Assembly: GCA_937892315.1 (NCBI GenBank)
Contig: CALAVF010000458.1
Span: 1-18,607 of the forward strand
Source: an uncultured Prevotellaceae bacterium
GTDB lineage: Bacteria; Bacteroidota; Bacteroidia; Bacteroidales; Bacteroidaceae
Direction of reading: 5' to 3'
DNA length: 18,607 nucleotides
This document shows, one piece after another, positions 11,901 to 18,494 of the stretch (position 1 is its first letter; every line of letters begins with the position of its first letter). The notes below the pieces were generated by a model. It saw only the letters and a list, made by a program, of their open reading frames with translations. It was not told the origin of the DNA and did not search any database. Position numbers and translations under genes: made by a program.

Positions 11901-12102
11901 CGTTGTTGGAATAAAACAAGAGCAACATGAAAAATGAATGAATGTTTGGAGGTATGGAAGAAAAAAGTGTGCCTTTGTCTGATTTTTCTTCAGGTGGGCA
12001 GATTTTTAATTATAAAAGTCAAAAACCAGATAAAAGTCGTGAAAAAGATGTCTAAATGTCACTTTTTGATTCACTTTGTGTCAGTATGTAGATAAAAAGC
12101 AC

Positions 12103-12110
12103 TACTTTTG
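12103..12110 (+). promoter_or_regulatory. -7 element TACTTTTG of the toxin-antitoxin operon
   Basis: TACTTTTG fits TAnnTTTG. The nearest upstream TTTG (12075-12078) is 24 nt away, somewhat longer than the usual 19-21. Upstream, CACTTT occurs twice (TGTCACTTTTTGATTCACTT), which could be an operator half-site pair. The predicted start near 12117 leaves a leader of about 40 nt before the ATG at 12157. Confidence 0.5.
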
Positions 12111-12156
12111 TACAGGCTATTCATTAAATACAACCTTACAACGAAAGGCTTTCAAT

Positions 12157-12729
12157 ATGACATTATTTGATAGGCAGACGCTGATAGAAGCAGTGCTCTA
12201 TATCCTCAATGCAACGAAGGGTATCGACTTTTACCATGTGTTCAAGATTTTGTATTTTGCAGAGCAGAAACATCTGGTAAAGTGGGGCACACGTATTACG
12301 GCAGAAGAATTCCATGCGTATGACTATGGTCCTGTGCCGTCAAATCTGTATGGTGCGGTGAGGACAAAACGAATTGGAACATCTGGAGCAGGTAGGGCAA
12401 GGCAGCAATTCTCCCACATGTTCAATGATGCCATATCTTTTGCTGGCGAGGATGCCCCCAATGTGCTGTTGGCGAGGCGAAATGCTAATTTGGACTATCT
12501 TTCGGAGTCAGATATACAATGCTTAGATGACTCCATCAAGGAGAATGCCCATTTGACTTTTAGCCAGTTAAAGGAAAAATCCCATGATAGTGCATGGCAT
12601 GAGGCATACGACAATAAAGGAACGGAGGGTGACTTGATGAATCCTCTTTCCATCGCTCGTGCCGCAGGTGCCAGTGACGATATGATTGAGTACATTTCGG
12701 AACAAATGGACGATTTGGTATTGGCGTGA
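12157..12729 (+). CDS. Panacea (DUF4065/SocA-like) domain protein, probable antitoxin
   Basis: This 190-residue protein carries the Panacea domain in its N-terminal half, as seen in LIEAVLYILNATKGIDFYHVFKILYFAEQKHLVKWG and EEFHAYDYGPVPSNLYGAVR; the stretch from the helix FKILYFAEQKHL to the GPVPSNLY turn is the family hallmark. The domain is known as a promiscuous antitoxin module that neutralises many unrelated toxins, and as the SocA proteolytic adaptor. The C-terminal half is helical and acidic (LDDSIKENAHLTFSQLKEKSHD, DMIEYISEQMDDLVLA). I use the ATG at MTLFDRQTL: the in-frame extension of 27 residues begins upstream of the -7 promoter element, so it could not be translated from that transcript. 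The stop overlaps the next gene (TGATG), the usual coupling of an antitoxin-first pair. Confidence 0.85.
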   Translation: MTLFDRQTLIEAVLYILNATKGIDFYHVFKILYFAEQKHLVKWGTRITAEEFHAYDYGPVPSNLYGAVRTKRIGTSGAGRARQQFSHMFNDAISFAGEDAPNVLLARRNANLDYLSESDIQCLDDSIKENAHLTFSQLKEKSHDSAWHEAYDNKGTEGDLMNPLSIARAAGASDDMIEYISEQMDDLVLA

Positions 12730-13172
12730 TGGAGATAACGGGGGAACAACTCAAAAAATTGGTTACGAACACCGTCGAAGTTGGTGATGTCTATCGGGTA
12801 AAAATGACGGTGAAAGACGGTGTCACTCCCAAAGACGGTGACGACTCACGCAACAAATTTTTTGTTGTTCTTGGCTTTGATGACCAAGGAACCATCTATG
12901 GAGGAGTCATTATCAATTCTAAAATCAATCAGAACGTGTCACAATCGGTGAAAGATTACCACATGCCTATATCGTGTGAAAAGTACAAGTTCCTTGACCA
13001 CGACTCTTTTGTCAATTGTGCCAATCTGAAAACCAAACCGCTGTCTGATTTTGTGGGTTCTCCGAAGTTGGGAACGGTTGATGATGATGACGTGGAACTG
13101 ATAAAGGAGACAATCAAAAACAGTCCAAATGAAAAGAAAGCAAAACTGAAGCAATTCGGTCTCCTGTCATAA
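12729..13172 (+). CDS. Probable toxin partner of the Panacea protein, PemK/MazF-like barrel
   Basis: This 147-residue cytosolic protein starts on the A of the preceding TGA (TGATG). Its core resembles PemK/MazF-type small barrels: VEVGDVYRVKMTV, then a charged loop, then NKFFVVLGFDDQGTIYGGVIINSKIN, followed by ISCEKYKFLDHDSFVNCANL. The last block resembles the strand that ends in a Ser/Asp/Cys pattern in such toxins. A basic C-terminus (KKAKLKQFGLLS) follows. By position it is the toxin neutralised by the Panacea gene, and by fold guess a ribonuclease or ribosome-directed toxin. The sequence match is to general pattern, not to a named toxin, so activity is inferred. There is no terminator of note before the converging TPR gene. 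Confidence 0.6.
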   Translation: MEITGEQLKKLVTNTVEVGDVYRVKMTVKDGVTPKDGDDSRNKFFVVLGFDDQGTIYGGVIINSKINQNVSQSVKDYHMPISCEKYKFLDHDSFVNCANLKTKPLSDFVGSPKLGTVDDDDVELIKETIKNSPNEKKAKLKQFGLLS

Positions 13173-15888: not shown

Positions 15889-16437
15889 ATGAAGGTAAAT
15901 GTTTTATCAGCAATTATTAGCATTTCATTGTGCTTGTTAACAGGGGAGAGTTATGCACAGGATTTGATACGTAAAGATGGGAAGGTGTATATTGAAGATT
16001 CTAAGCACATAAATAAGTTGTGGGAAGTTGATACGACCTCTGTCATGGTAAGCATTGATACAACTCTCGTTCAATCTGGTATCCTTTCCAAAGTCAATAC
16101 ATTAGGTTTTACGATGGTACATGTGCCTCAAGATGTTCGTCTTGAACAGTTTATGGATTCGTTGAAAAAGTTGCCTTATGTAAAATTCGTTGAGCATAAT
16201 GTATATGGTGAATACACGGACAATAGTGATCCATATGCAAGTGACCAATGGTATTATTGGGATTATGATTTTTACAATATTTCTGACACTATACAACAAA
16301 AATCGAAAGATTTTATGTATTTTTGCAGTCAGGATATTAAAAATGGAAAAAAAGTATATCGGACAACGACAAAAAGTCATCAGCCTATTCTCTGGAGCTG
16401 GTGGTCTGGATATTGGCTTCGAAAATGCAGGCTTTGA
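15889..16437 (+). pseudogene. Truncated subtilisin-family (S8) protease: signal and propeptide only
   Basis: The 182-codon frame starts with a signal peptide (MKVNVLSAIISISLCLLTGESYAQ). It continues as an S8 propeptide of the fervidolysin type: TLGFTMVHVPQDVRLEQFMDSL, LPYVKFVEHNVYGEY, and then the linker DNSDPYASDQW (112-121) that normally leads into the catalytic domain. After about residue 130 (near 16.28 kb) the frame no longer resembles a protease. From 16343 it simply reads through the methyltransferase gene out of frame (WSWWSGYWLRKCRL). None of the Asp, His and Ser catalytic blocks is present. No 3' remnant of the protease follows the restriction genes in this window. I infer disruption by acquisition of the restriction-modification cassette. 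Confidence 0.7.
16318..16325 (+). promoter_or_regulatory. Possible -7 element TATTTTTG before the methyltransferase
   Basis: TATTTTTG satisfies TAnnTTTG and is 17 nt before the ATG at 16343. The surroundings are AT-rich and no -33 TTTG is at the right distance, so this is a weak call. It would give the cassette its own short-leader transcript independent of the broken protease gene. Confidence 0.35.
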
Positions 16438-17068
16438 GGTGGTTGTGGCTGTAGAGATAGACCCCTCATGTTGTGATACCTTACATGCCAATAAGCCGAA
16501 TATGCCCATCATTAACAAAAGTGTAACAGATGTTACCGGGCAAGAGATATTGGATATCGCAGGTTTGAAAGTCGGTGAAGCAGCACTTGTAATCGGTGGC
16601 CCTCCATGTCAAAGTTTCAGTTTGGCTGGGCTACGCAAAGGCTTAGATGACGAACGTGGCCGATTGCTATTTGAGTACGTCCGAATTGTCAGAGAAACAT
16701 TGCCCAAAGCCTTTGTATTGGAGAATGTGAAAGGTCTGACGAACTGGGATCATGGTGGGGCGATGAAGTTACTCATTGACGAACTGAATAAACCCGTAGA
16801 ATATAATGGACAAATTTATCAATATAATATCGGGGTCCCGCAGGTCCTGAATGCTGTCGATTATGGTGTTCCACAGAATCGTGAAAGGCTTATCATTGTG
16901 GGAAATCGTTTGGGTAAGTCCTTTTTGTACCCAGCACCACATGTCTTTGAACCGAAAAAAACCGTTTGGGATGCTATTGGAAATTTGCCAGAGCCAGAAG
17001 GACCTTCGGAAACAGCCTTAAGAGTTGCCGGAACTATACAGGAAAGGAGAAACAAATATGGTTACTAG
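16343..17068 (+). CDS. DNA (cytosine-5) methyltransferase, N-terminal part (motifs I-VIII)
   Basis: This 241-residue protein contains the catalytic half of an m5C methyltransferase, which transfers a methyl group from SAM to cytosine in the restriction site. Motif I is VISLFSGAGGLDIGFENAGF (12-31), motif II the EID at 38-40, motif IV GGPPCQSFS with the nucleophile Cys89, motif VI ENV (127-129) and motif VIII QNRERLIIVG (178-187). It then enters the variable region (LPEPEGPSETALRVAG) and stops at TAG with ...RRNKYGY. Motifs IX and X are in the next, overlapping frame. Translation from MEKKYIGQ is preferred because upstream in-frame codons run through the protease remnant. It is either the alpha subunit of a split enzyme or the first half of a frameshifted gene. 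Confidence 0.85.
   Translation: MEKKYIGQRQKVISLFSGAGGLDIGFENAGFEVVVAVEIDPSCCDTLHANKPNMPIINKSVTDVTGQEILDIAGLKVGEAALVIGGPPCQSFSLAGLRKGLDDERGRLLFEYVRIVRETLPKAFVLENVKGLTNWDHGGAMKLLIDELNKPVEYNGQIYQYNIGVPQVLNAVDYGVPQNRERLIIVGNRLGKSFLYPAPHVFEPKKTVWDAIGNLPEPEGPSETALRVAGTIQERRNKYGY
17045..17049 (+). promoter_or_regulatory. Strong Shine-Dalgarno inside the methyltransferase overlap
   Basis: AGGAG, within AGGAAAGGAGA, lies 8 nt before the ATG at 17058 that opens the motif IX-X frame. Such a strong site is unusual in this window, where most starts have none. It favours independent initiation of the second half, although a purine run could also be chance. Confidence 0.55.
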
Positions 17069-17459
17069 ACATATACCCAATCACCAAGTAACTGCACACT
17101 CACCATCGACATTGGAGAAAATCAAGAAAGTAACCATCGGTGGGAAACTATCTGAAGTTGAGCAGACATTTGGTTCGACTTACAGACGTCTTGACCCGTC
17201 AAAACCATCACCAACAGTGACACGAAGTGGCTACCGTGACTTCATCCATCCGTATGAAGACCGCATGCTGACAGTACGTGAGTTGGCCTGTTTGCAAACA
17301 TTTCCCATTGACTGGGTATTCAAAGGGGTCAGGCTCGATTCTTACAGTTCAAAACGTAAGACTACAATGACACAATTCGGACAAGTCGGAAATGCGGTCC
17401 CCCCGAAACTCGCCGAAGCGATAGCCACAGAAGTAATGAAACAATTTTTTGAAGAATAG
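17058..17459 (+). CDS. DNA (cytosine-5) methyltransferase, C-terminal part (TRD end, motifs IX-X)
   Basis: This 133-residue protein continues the methyltransferase: MVTRHIPNHQVTAHSPSTLE and RRLDPSKPSPTVTR belong to the target-recognition/motif IX approach, RELACLQTFPIDWVF (74-88) is motif IX, and QVGNAVPPKLAEAIA is motif X, which completes the SAM pocket. Alone it cannot methylate. It overlaps the first part by 11 nt in the +1 frame. It has its own ATG and Shine-Dalgarno, and together the parts make 374 residues, a normal m5C enzyme length with nothing visibly missing. M.AquI is a precedent for such an alpha/beta division. Skipping one base near the TAG would instead fuse the halves (YGY-RHIPNH), so a one-base frameshift is the alternative. 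The endonuclease starts 3 nt after its stop. Confidence 0.8.
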   Translation: MVTRHIPNHQVTAHSPSTLEKIKKVTIGGKLSEVEQTFGSTYRRLDPSKPSPTVTRSGYRDFIHPYEDRMLTVRELACLQTFPIDWVFKGVRLDSYSSKRKTTMTQFGQVGNAVPPKLAEAIATEVMKQFFEE

Positions 17460-17462
17460 TTT

Positions 17463-18494
17463 ATGCCTAAAGTACCTGAATCAGTCGTGAAAGAGAGTTA
17501 TTTCCTTCGTGCGACTTTTAGCTATAACAGATTGCGCTCTGAAGGATATTTCGACCTGTTTGTAAAAATTCGCAAACTCGCTCGCATAGAAGGAGAAAAA
17601 CTTAGTTGGGAATTGAAAAATGACTGGGGAATAAGTACGGATGCATGGAACATACTCCAACTCAACAAGATCCAACCGATGCTTGTTTTTCTGCATCCGA
17701 AAGTACTGCAATTAGATCCGTCCGTCTTGAAATATTACCGTTCAGTGGCTTTAATACCACAGAAGGGCATGAAAGCACTATCCAGTGTTTCAAGTATAAA
17801 CGACATCGAAGACGGTAAGATTAAAGCTGGCCACCTCTCACAAAAACAGATTGAGAGGTTGGTCAAATCCATTAACGAAGCTGTATCACTCGTAATTGCC
17901 TTAGCATCCGACATCAATGAAAATAAAATTGAAGGTATGATGTACGCTACAGCAGGTGTAAAGATTGACGGGGCGTGGAGAACAAAAATTGGAGTGGAAG
18001 GTGAACGTGTCATTAGGAAAATCATTTTTAATGAATTATTTACACACAAAGAGATTTCATCAGTTGAAAACAAGAAAGGCATACTGAGCGAAATAACAAA
18101 ATGGAAAAATACCACAGATGTAGATGAAATAAAAGTACTACATATGATTAATGGCTACTCCATTTTGTTCTCATCCGAACCAGATGTTACGATATTCGAC
18201 CCATCTGGTTCCATTGTTGGAGTTATCGAAATCAAGTCTGGACTTGACCCTGCTGGCGCGTTAGAGCGCTTGGGAGCCATGTTTAAGTCGTTCGAGAATA
18301 CACTTGCTGAATATCCTGATGCTGTTACAATTTTAGTTGCATCGTGTATTACTGATGAAGTAGATAAACGGCTGAATTCCTCAATGACCGTTCGTCAAAG
18401 GTATCTCACAACAGATATCACATCGAGTGAACCAGAGAAACGGAAATTTGTGAACCGCTTACGAACAATAATGCACTTAACAGGTAAAAAGTAA
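17463..18494 (+). CDS. Type II restriction endonuclease, PD-(D/E)XK fold, XcyI-like
   Basis: This 343-residue protein directly follows the methyltransferase and is the restriction partner. A catalytic PD-(D/E)XK core is visible: P240-D241 in SSEPDVTIFDPSG, then E256-I257-K258 in VGVIEIKSG. The N-terminal half is helical and contains WELKNDWGISTDAWNIL, FLHPKVLQLDPSVLKYYRSV and ALIPQKGMKAL, which recall the XcyI family (CCCGGG cutters). That resemblance is from memory of the family pattern and the specificity should be taken as a hypothesis. The known XcyI and Cfr9I partners are m4C enzymes, whereas here the partner is m5C. The frame appears intact, so the gene could be active if the split methyltransferase works. 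Confidence 0.75.
   Translation: MPKVPESVVKESYFLRATFSYNRLRSEGYFDLFVKIRKLARIEGEKLSWELKNDWGISTDAWNILQLNKIQPMLVFLHPKVLQLDPSVLKYYRSVALIPQKGMKALSSVSSINDIEDGKIKAGHLSQKQIERLVKSINEAVSLVIALASDINENKIEGMMYATAGVKIDGAWRTKIGVEGERVIRKIIFNELFTHKEISSVENKKGILSEITKWKNTTDVDEIKVLHMINGYSILFSSEPDVTIFDPSGSIVGVIEIKSGLDPAGALERLGAMFKSFENTLAEYPDAVTILVASCITDEVDKRLNSSMTVRQRYLTTDITSSEPEKRKFVNRLRTIMHLTGKK

Follow-up and report, generated by a model that had tools for sequence, protein, structure and literature searches.

Among the C5-cytosine methyltransferases, the natural enzymes divided over two polypeptides that are named in the passages available from PMC3404938, PMC5944983, PMC3439449, PMC4081073, PMC8557920, PMC5608340, and PMC6429310 are M.AquI and M.EcoHK31I. 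According to the part of PMC3404938 that describes them, M.AquI is a natural two-polypeptide C5-methyltransferase with the site CYCGRG, the break lying after motif VIII and before the recognition domain, and M.EcoHK31I has a small subunit with motif IX only, motif X and the recognition domain being in the large subunit. Artificial division at the same place as in M.AquI also works (excerpts of PMC3404938 and PMC5944983), and in the literature on these enzymes, in the portions available, division is otherwise treated mainly as an engineering device. Here, a split enzyme is described from an uncultured Prevotellaceae bacterium (contig CALAVF010000458.1 of assembly GCA_937892315.1; the window is this whole stretch of 18,607 nucleotides). 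In it, two overlapping frames would be functional genes for the alpha and beta subunits of one C5-methyltransferase, an obligate pair guarding against the XcyI-type nuclease encoded beside it, a reading to which, from sequence, a probability of roughly 0.92 is given. The two-subunit C5 architecture is already known, but its occurrence as a conserved family next to a nuclease of the XcyI type is apparently undescribed: no description of such a split family with an 11-nucleotide (nt) overlap was found in open-licence PubMed Central, REBASE being outside this search and a place where it may be recorded.

The features of the locus are the following.

16343 to 17068, + strand: alpha gene, 241 amino acids (aa), ATG at 16343 and stop TAG at 17066 to 17068; catalytic part of a C5-cytosine methyltransferase.
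16997 to 17065, + strand: C-terminal tail of alpha, residues 219 to 241, outside the alignment to continuous enzymes, with a predicted helix at 223 to 239.
17045 to 17049, + strand: AGGAG, ribosome-binding-site-like, 8 nt upstream of the beta ATG.
17058 to 17068, + strand: alpha/beta overlap of 11 nt, containing the beta ATG and the alpha stop.
17058 to 17459, + strand: beta gene, 133 aa, ATG at 17058 to 17060 and stop at 17457 to 17459; carries motifs IX and X and the remainder of the target-recognition region.
17463 to 18494, + strand: XcyI-type restriction endonuclease gene, 343 aa, with PD (240 to 241) and EIK (256 to 258).

The original prediction, made from the letters of the window, had described two overlapping frames with an 11-nt overlap, the second in the +1 frame and preceded by AGGAG. 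The reading frames reproduce these coordinates exactly, beta being offset by +1 relative to alpha and the AGGAG lying where expected. The nuclease gene begins 3 nt past the beta stop on the same strand and is complete.

Each frame matches a different part of the C5-methyltransferase family PF00145, being profile positions 2 to 196 for alpha (expectation value E 5.8e-55) and 221 to 323 for beta (E 6.9e-12). Alpha contains GGLDIGF, GGPPCQSFS, VLENV, and QNRER, which we take to be motifs I, IV, VI, and VIII, and beta contains PSPTVT and GQVGNAVPP, presumably motifs IX and X, as the original prediction had assigned them. The order of the numbered motifs agrees with that given in the available parts of PMC3404938 and PMC5944983. 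A layout of the M.EcoHK31I type is ruled out because beta holds both of its motif sequences and not motif IX alone. Moreover, the catalytic PCQ, ENV, and QxRxR residues are invariant across 29 aligned alphas. The AlphaFold2 model of alpha has a mean predicted local distance difference test (pLDDT) score of 85, with residues 223 to 239 forming a helix, and its best match in the PDB is M.HaeIII (1dct, E 9.4e-16). Then, with motifs I to VIII in alpha, IX and X in beta, and the break in the variable region, the layout is that of a two-subunit enzyme of the M.AquI type as defined in the accessible part of PMC3404938. The claim that the break falls exactly where M.AquI is divided stands at the level of domain order, as that source describes it, and no further.

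To compare the pair with undivided enzymes, alpha and beta were joined end to end, padded, and searched as one query against candidates of ~275 to 875 aa. As in all protein searches here, the database held ~5.8 billion proteins and the best 120 matches were listed per query. The 120 rows comprise 22 alphas, one single-unit continuous enzyme, and 97 two-unit enzymes of 709 to 819 aa with 32 to 39% identity, each of the 97 having PPC twice and hence two methyltransferase units. The sole single-unit enzyme among the matches listed, P0241 (335 aa), is also the nearest continuous relative listed, with 50% identity, and is devoid of the ~23-residue alpha tail. A continuous profile of 339 nodes was built from 90 sequences, being P0241 and the N-terminal units of 89 of the 97 two-unit proteins; the other eight were dropped because the cutting pattern found no motif X in the expected range. 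On this profile alpha occupies nodes 4 to 206 and beta nodes 208 to 332, leaving a gap of one node, in agreement with the earlier statement that no residues appear lost, and the ~23 C-terminal residues of alpha fall outside the alignment. In relatives this tail has the consensus SETALRVAGTIKxRREKYGY, and it bears no resemblance to the N terminus of beta, the local score being equalled in 255 of 1000 shuffles.

Parts that join almost gaplessly on a continuous profile are also what a frameshifted gene would give, and this favors the explanation that a single-base change near 17066, either a mutation or a sequencing error, broke one continuous methyltransferase gene. However, coverage of the profile with a gap of one node plus an additional tail on alpha is not what a frameshifted continuous gene would yield; neither the tail, which lies outside the continuous profile, nor its conservation is explained in this way. 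Also, continuous relatives reach at most 50% identity among the 120 matches listed, and no close relative seen among them is one continuous frame, which contradicts the single-base insertion that the original prediction had offered as the rival.

The searches with each subunit add to this. For alpha, sizes of ~133 to 421 aa were allowed, so that full-length enzymes were eligible, and scoring was restricted to the 7996 candidates that had most words in common with the query, which gave 7743 matches. The best 120 were examined, one of them being the window's own protein. In this set the nearest relatives are 84 to 87% identical and 250 to 280 aa long as predicted in the database, and all 120 end in the pattern x[YHF]G[YFQ], which speaks against a frameshifted gene. 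For beta (~73 to 233 aa allowed), the 848 matches likewise speak for numerous stand-alone proteins and against a broken gene. The 120 listed are 130 to 146 aa long and 78 to 91% identical, and in 118 the N terminus has the residues dictated by the overlap; the remaining 728 matches lie beyond those listed, and some may be fragments of continuous enzymes. The source labels of some of the listed matches, taken as given and unchecked, include Prevotella, Muribaculaceae, Pseudoflavonifractor, Solobacterium, Lachnospiraceae, Mitsuokella, and Caudoviricetes. Three listed alphas of 308 to 340 aa have their extra length only at the N terminus, in a helix-turn-helix domain (PF13443). This N-terminal domain, of the Cro/C1 type, occurs on alphas P0092, P0100, P0110, P0242, P0244 to P0248, P0250 to P0252, P0254, and P0255, which are possibly self-regulating methyltransferases.

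The original prediction had proposed looking at homologs for conservation of the two-frame arrangement, and in them the split is kept with an identical overlap. The nuclease was used to scan contigs of one genome per species in 84,980 species, which gave eight loci, all from Bacteroidota by record title. Four of the titles give rumen or reticulum, three are RUG isolates, which are read as rumen genomes, and one (L007) gives no source. In all eight, alpha and beta are separate frames immediately upstream of the nuclease. Two further distinct loci are viral, being IMG/VR sequences found with the beta alignment. The +1 offset and an overlap of exactly 11 nt are present in 10 of 10 distinct related loci, thus in 11 of 11 with the window, as expected of a natural alpha/beta enzyme and not of a frameshift, so that the explanation by a broken gene is hardly credible. 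Exact copies were excluded from these counts (L016 to L019 have the sequence of L015, and L024 that of L004), and L082 to L087 and L100 to L105 are the same viral contigs as L015 to L020; L021, which ends at a contig edge, and L022 and L023, which are distant continuous enzymes, were not counted. In the IMG/VR contigs (L015 to L020), alpha is 48% and beta 72 to 75% identical to the window, with the same 11-nt overlap. Separately encoded and conserved subunits, in the 11 loci and in the 120 listed alphas that end alike, are a second character of the M.AquI type found here. The arrangement is therefore a family trait and not specific to the window, and this, together with the additional tail of ~23 residues in alpha, refines the original prediction.

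The nonsynonymous distance between the window and the eight bacterial loci is 0.11 to 0.23 for alpha and 0.04 to 0.17 for beta, and for the two viral loci it is 0.37 to 0.40 and 0.27, respectively. For the synonymous distance every comparison gave -1, a value read as saturation. It follows that both genes are under purifying selection.

The rigid conservation of overlap length and frame is also what a recoding site would show. Then, ribosomes could shift by +1 in the overlap to produce one continuous protein, with the separate products as by-products. However, such a fusion would not need a start of its own for beta, and this start is kept at the nucleotide level. The beta ATG arises where the end of a Tyr or His codon meets the following Gly codon, and the former has T as its third letter in all 11 loci, the pooled T fraction in these genes being 0.68; the product of 0.013 assumes independence of the loci, which does not hold. 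The wobble bases of the two codons after the one creating the ATG vary. Also, the Arg codon at the place of the AGGAG is AGG in 10 of 11 loci compared with 20% of the pooled Arg codons. The beta start signal thus looks selected at the nucleotide level, judging from these codons. Moreover, M1 is invariant in 24 aligned betas (with starts as called by the gene callers of the databases), another feature that a fusion would not need. No slippery sequence was recognized in the overlap, no scan having been run, and M.AquI is described as two polypeptides in the relevant part of PMC3404938. Programmed frameshifting is accordingly considered very unlikely.

The protein encoded downstream belongs to the XcyI family, as indicated by a match to PF09571 (E 3e-18, 66.6 bits, cut-off 25) together with the PD...EXK residues P240, D241, E256, and K258, which are invariant in all 11 aligned nuclease rows, the window included. 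The Pfam matches listed for the window nuclease are PF09571 and Saw1, the latter below the cut-off. In the eight bacterial loci, the nuclease match begins -1 to +13 nt from the beta stop on the same strand, as in a typical restriction-modification operon, although these loci had been chosen by the nuclease. The original prediction had argued that a cell could not survive with an intact endonuclease next to an inactive methyltransferase. This argument is reasonable, and the part of it that stands is a nuclease gene of full length with its catalytic residues; the activity of the nuclease is predicted.

A different possibility is that both subunits are made but act as a regulator or an orphan methyltransferase, the link to the nuclease being incidental. 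For example, the viral loci have the split enzyme without a match to the window nuclease, and several alphas bear the Cro/C1-type domain mentioned above. Nonetheless, the operon-like position of the nuclease in eight of eight bacterial loci, selected as they were, is not accounted for, and this possibility is judged quite unlikely. In the viral contigs the split enzyme perhaps allows a phage or element to shield its own DNA.

Nucleases of the XcyI family cut CCCGGG, and the site of BsoBI is CYCGRG. A weak match links the core of the nuclease profile to BsoBI (1dc1; 69 profile positions, E 0.0027), although slightly better scores were obtained by two ATP synthase chains that are unrelated; the BsoBI Pfam family is matched by 3 of 11 nuclease members at E <= 0.1, the window protein showing no such match. 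CYCGRG, the site of M.AquI, includes CCCGGG and so covers the XcyI-family site. By this analogy the target could be CCCGGG or CYCGRG, which is a guess. The window (18.6 kb) contains no CCCGGG and four CYCGRG. The median ratio of CCCGGG to GGGCCC is 1.56 in seven carrier genomes (those of L002, L003, L005, L006, L007, and L009, and G706, which has the exact L004 system, the genome of L008 being left out) versus 2.29 in 60 other genomes of the family (Mann-Whitney p 0.07), and 6 of the 60 have a ratio at or below that of G706. The 60 were not screened individually for the system, which 1 of 399 genomes of the same family carries.

As far as could be seen, it is unusual for an XcyI-type nuclease to be paired with a split C5 enzyme: M.XcyI and M.Cfr9I appear as N4-cytosine methyltransferases in a table of PMC8557920, and in L001 a distant XcyI relative has a partner methyltransferase of the N6/N4 type. 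The nuclease of L001 (25 to 2376), located beside that methyltransferase, is 32% identical to the one of the window and also matches the BsoBI family. Another XcyI-family nuclease gene, N-terminally shortened, is found in a Nostoc plasmid (p057_J, L088); the plasmid gene tables, which are incomplete, list no methyltransferase in the 6 kb flanking it on each side.

The split-enzyme family is uncommon in the sampled genomes. The nuclease was found in 1 of 101 relatives, with 32% identity, and the beta alignment matched 1 of 399 genomes of the family. In the order it matched none of 393 genomes at E <= 1e-25, an empty answer that is uninformative because the scan had no positive control, and in the phylum beta was found in 5 of 395 genomes at E <= 1e-15, always within continuous frames of 365 to 754 aa. 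A viral scan with the window beta alone returned nothing, whereas scans with alignments or other members gave matches. The alpha alignment gave 57 viral loci with 28 to 44% identity; the 11-nt split is absent from those checked, and in many of them the beta relative is too distant to locate. Searches of annotated phages and plasmids gave 57 and 281 records for beta and 333 (E <= 1e-20) and 144 (E <= 1e-30) for alpha, respectively, with identity always below 60%.

Trees were calculated for 32 alpha rows (20 split) and 27 beta rows (15 split) chosen by the analyst. The split rows group together with P0241 inside, with support of 99/99 for alpha and 89/89 for beta; P0241 sits on a long branch, and the trees do not fix its position within the group. 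Approximately unbiased (AU) tests that omit three long continuous rows (L010, L048, and L058) do not reject a single clade of all split rows, with p 0.375 for alpha (29 rows) and p 0.309 for beta (24 rows). One origin of the split is thus possible from these sequences, and the split enzyme may have been re-fused. Also, one of the omitted rows, L010, is a continuous C5-methyltransferase that is circularly permuted (365-aa frame, - strand), with a beta-like part at residues 2 to 133 and the catalytic part at 133 to 352. Its permutation opens at about the junction where the window enzyme divides, and natural permutants of this kind are described in the available part of PMC5944983.

According to the two-subunit reading, the chain would have been split for good where motif VIII gives way to the target-recognition region. 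Alpha would provide S-adenosylmethionine binding and the catalytic cysteine, and beta most of the target-recognition region and motifs IX and X, so both would have to associate for activity, by analogy with M.AquI. Beta would be translated from its own ATG within the end of alpha, the overlap probably coupling translation of the two, and the tail of alpha could dock the subunits. Together with the adjacent nuclease, the assembled enzyme would then form a type II restriction-modification system, in which its role would be protection.

Several observations weigh against this reading. No data on activity, association, or methylation were found for the window enzyme or its close relatives, and the model of beta alone is unreliable (pLDDT 41). 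The codon test of the beta start takes related loci as independent. Also, the bacterial loci were gathered through the nuclease, making the pairing of enzyme and nuclease partly a selection effect, and the contigs L015 to L020 have no match to the window nuclease in the stretch examined. Finally, CCCGGG is not clearly depleted in the seven carriers relative to the 60 sampled family genomes, although this test is indirect.

A wider proposal, held tentatively and at a little below even odds, is that the split formed once and gave an obligately two-subunit clade that went on to spread in the gut and rumen, in bacteria and phages alike. Here, the tail helix, a hallmark specific to the split enzymes, would serve for docking, the invariant 11-nt overlap would tie beta synthesis to that of alpha, and the split enzyme would have replaced the usual N4-cytosine enzyme as guardian of the XcyI-type nuclease in Bacteroidota, splitting being a maintained regulatory or assembly device and not a tolerated accident. 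With its fixed junction, its identical overlap, and the tail added to alpha, this family offers natural replicates for asking why a chain was divided and stayed so, and its members are natural subunit pairs available for programmable methylation tools. Moreover, split pairs can be mistaken for frameshifted pseudogenes, and active restriction-modification barriers would be overlooked in consequence.

Two other regions of the window deserve mention. The frame at 15889 to 16437, which extends beyond the alpha start, encodes a protein with a weak match to a protease prodomain (PF22148, below cut-off) and is possibly a host gene truncated by insertion of the restriction-modification genes. At 12076 to 13172 lies a possible toxin-antitoxin pair, made up of a 217-aa protein with a SocA/Panacea domain (PF13274) and a partner of 148 aa that has no Pfam match and is overlapped by the end of the former.

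Compared with the known systems, the closest is M.AquI. Its subunits are about 248 and 139 aa, close to the 241 and 133 aa found here. Its host is a cyanobacterium (Picosynechococcus/Agmenellum), unlike the present one, and the likeness is known from domain order and not from sequence. Five plasmids of Picosynechococcus PCC 7002 gave nothing significant with alpha, beta, or the nuclease as query. One of these, pAQ5 (L091, 6822 to 7932), has an annotated 270-aa cytosine methyltransferase that overlaps a 109-aa hypothetical protein, unrelated to alpha and beta by tblastn. M.EcoHK31I (YGGCCR) is likewise a C5-methyltransferase of two natural polypeptides but differs in that the beta of the window carries both motifs IX and X. 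The XcyI and Cfr9I systems have the nuclease family (PF09571) in common with the window, whereas the methyltransferase is an N4-cytosine enzyme there and a split C5 enzyme here. Finally, M.HaeIII and M.HhaI share the catalytic fold of alpha but consist of one chain, and their sequence match to alpha ends at residues 203 to 214, before the tail.
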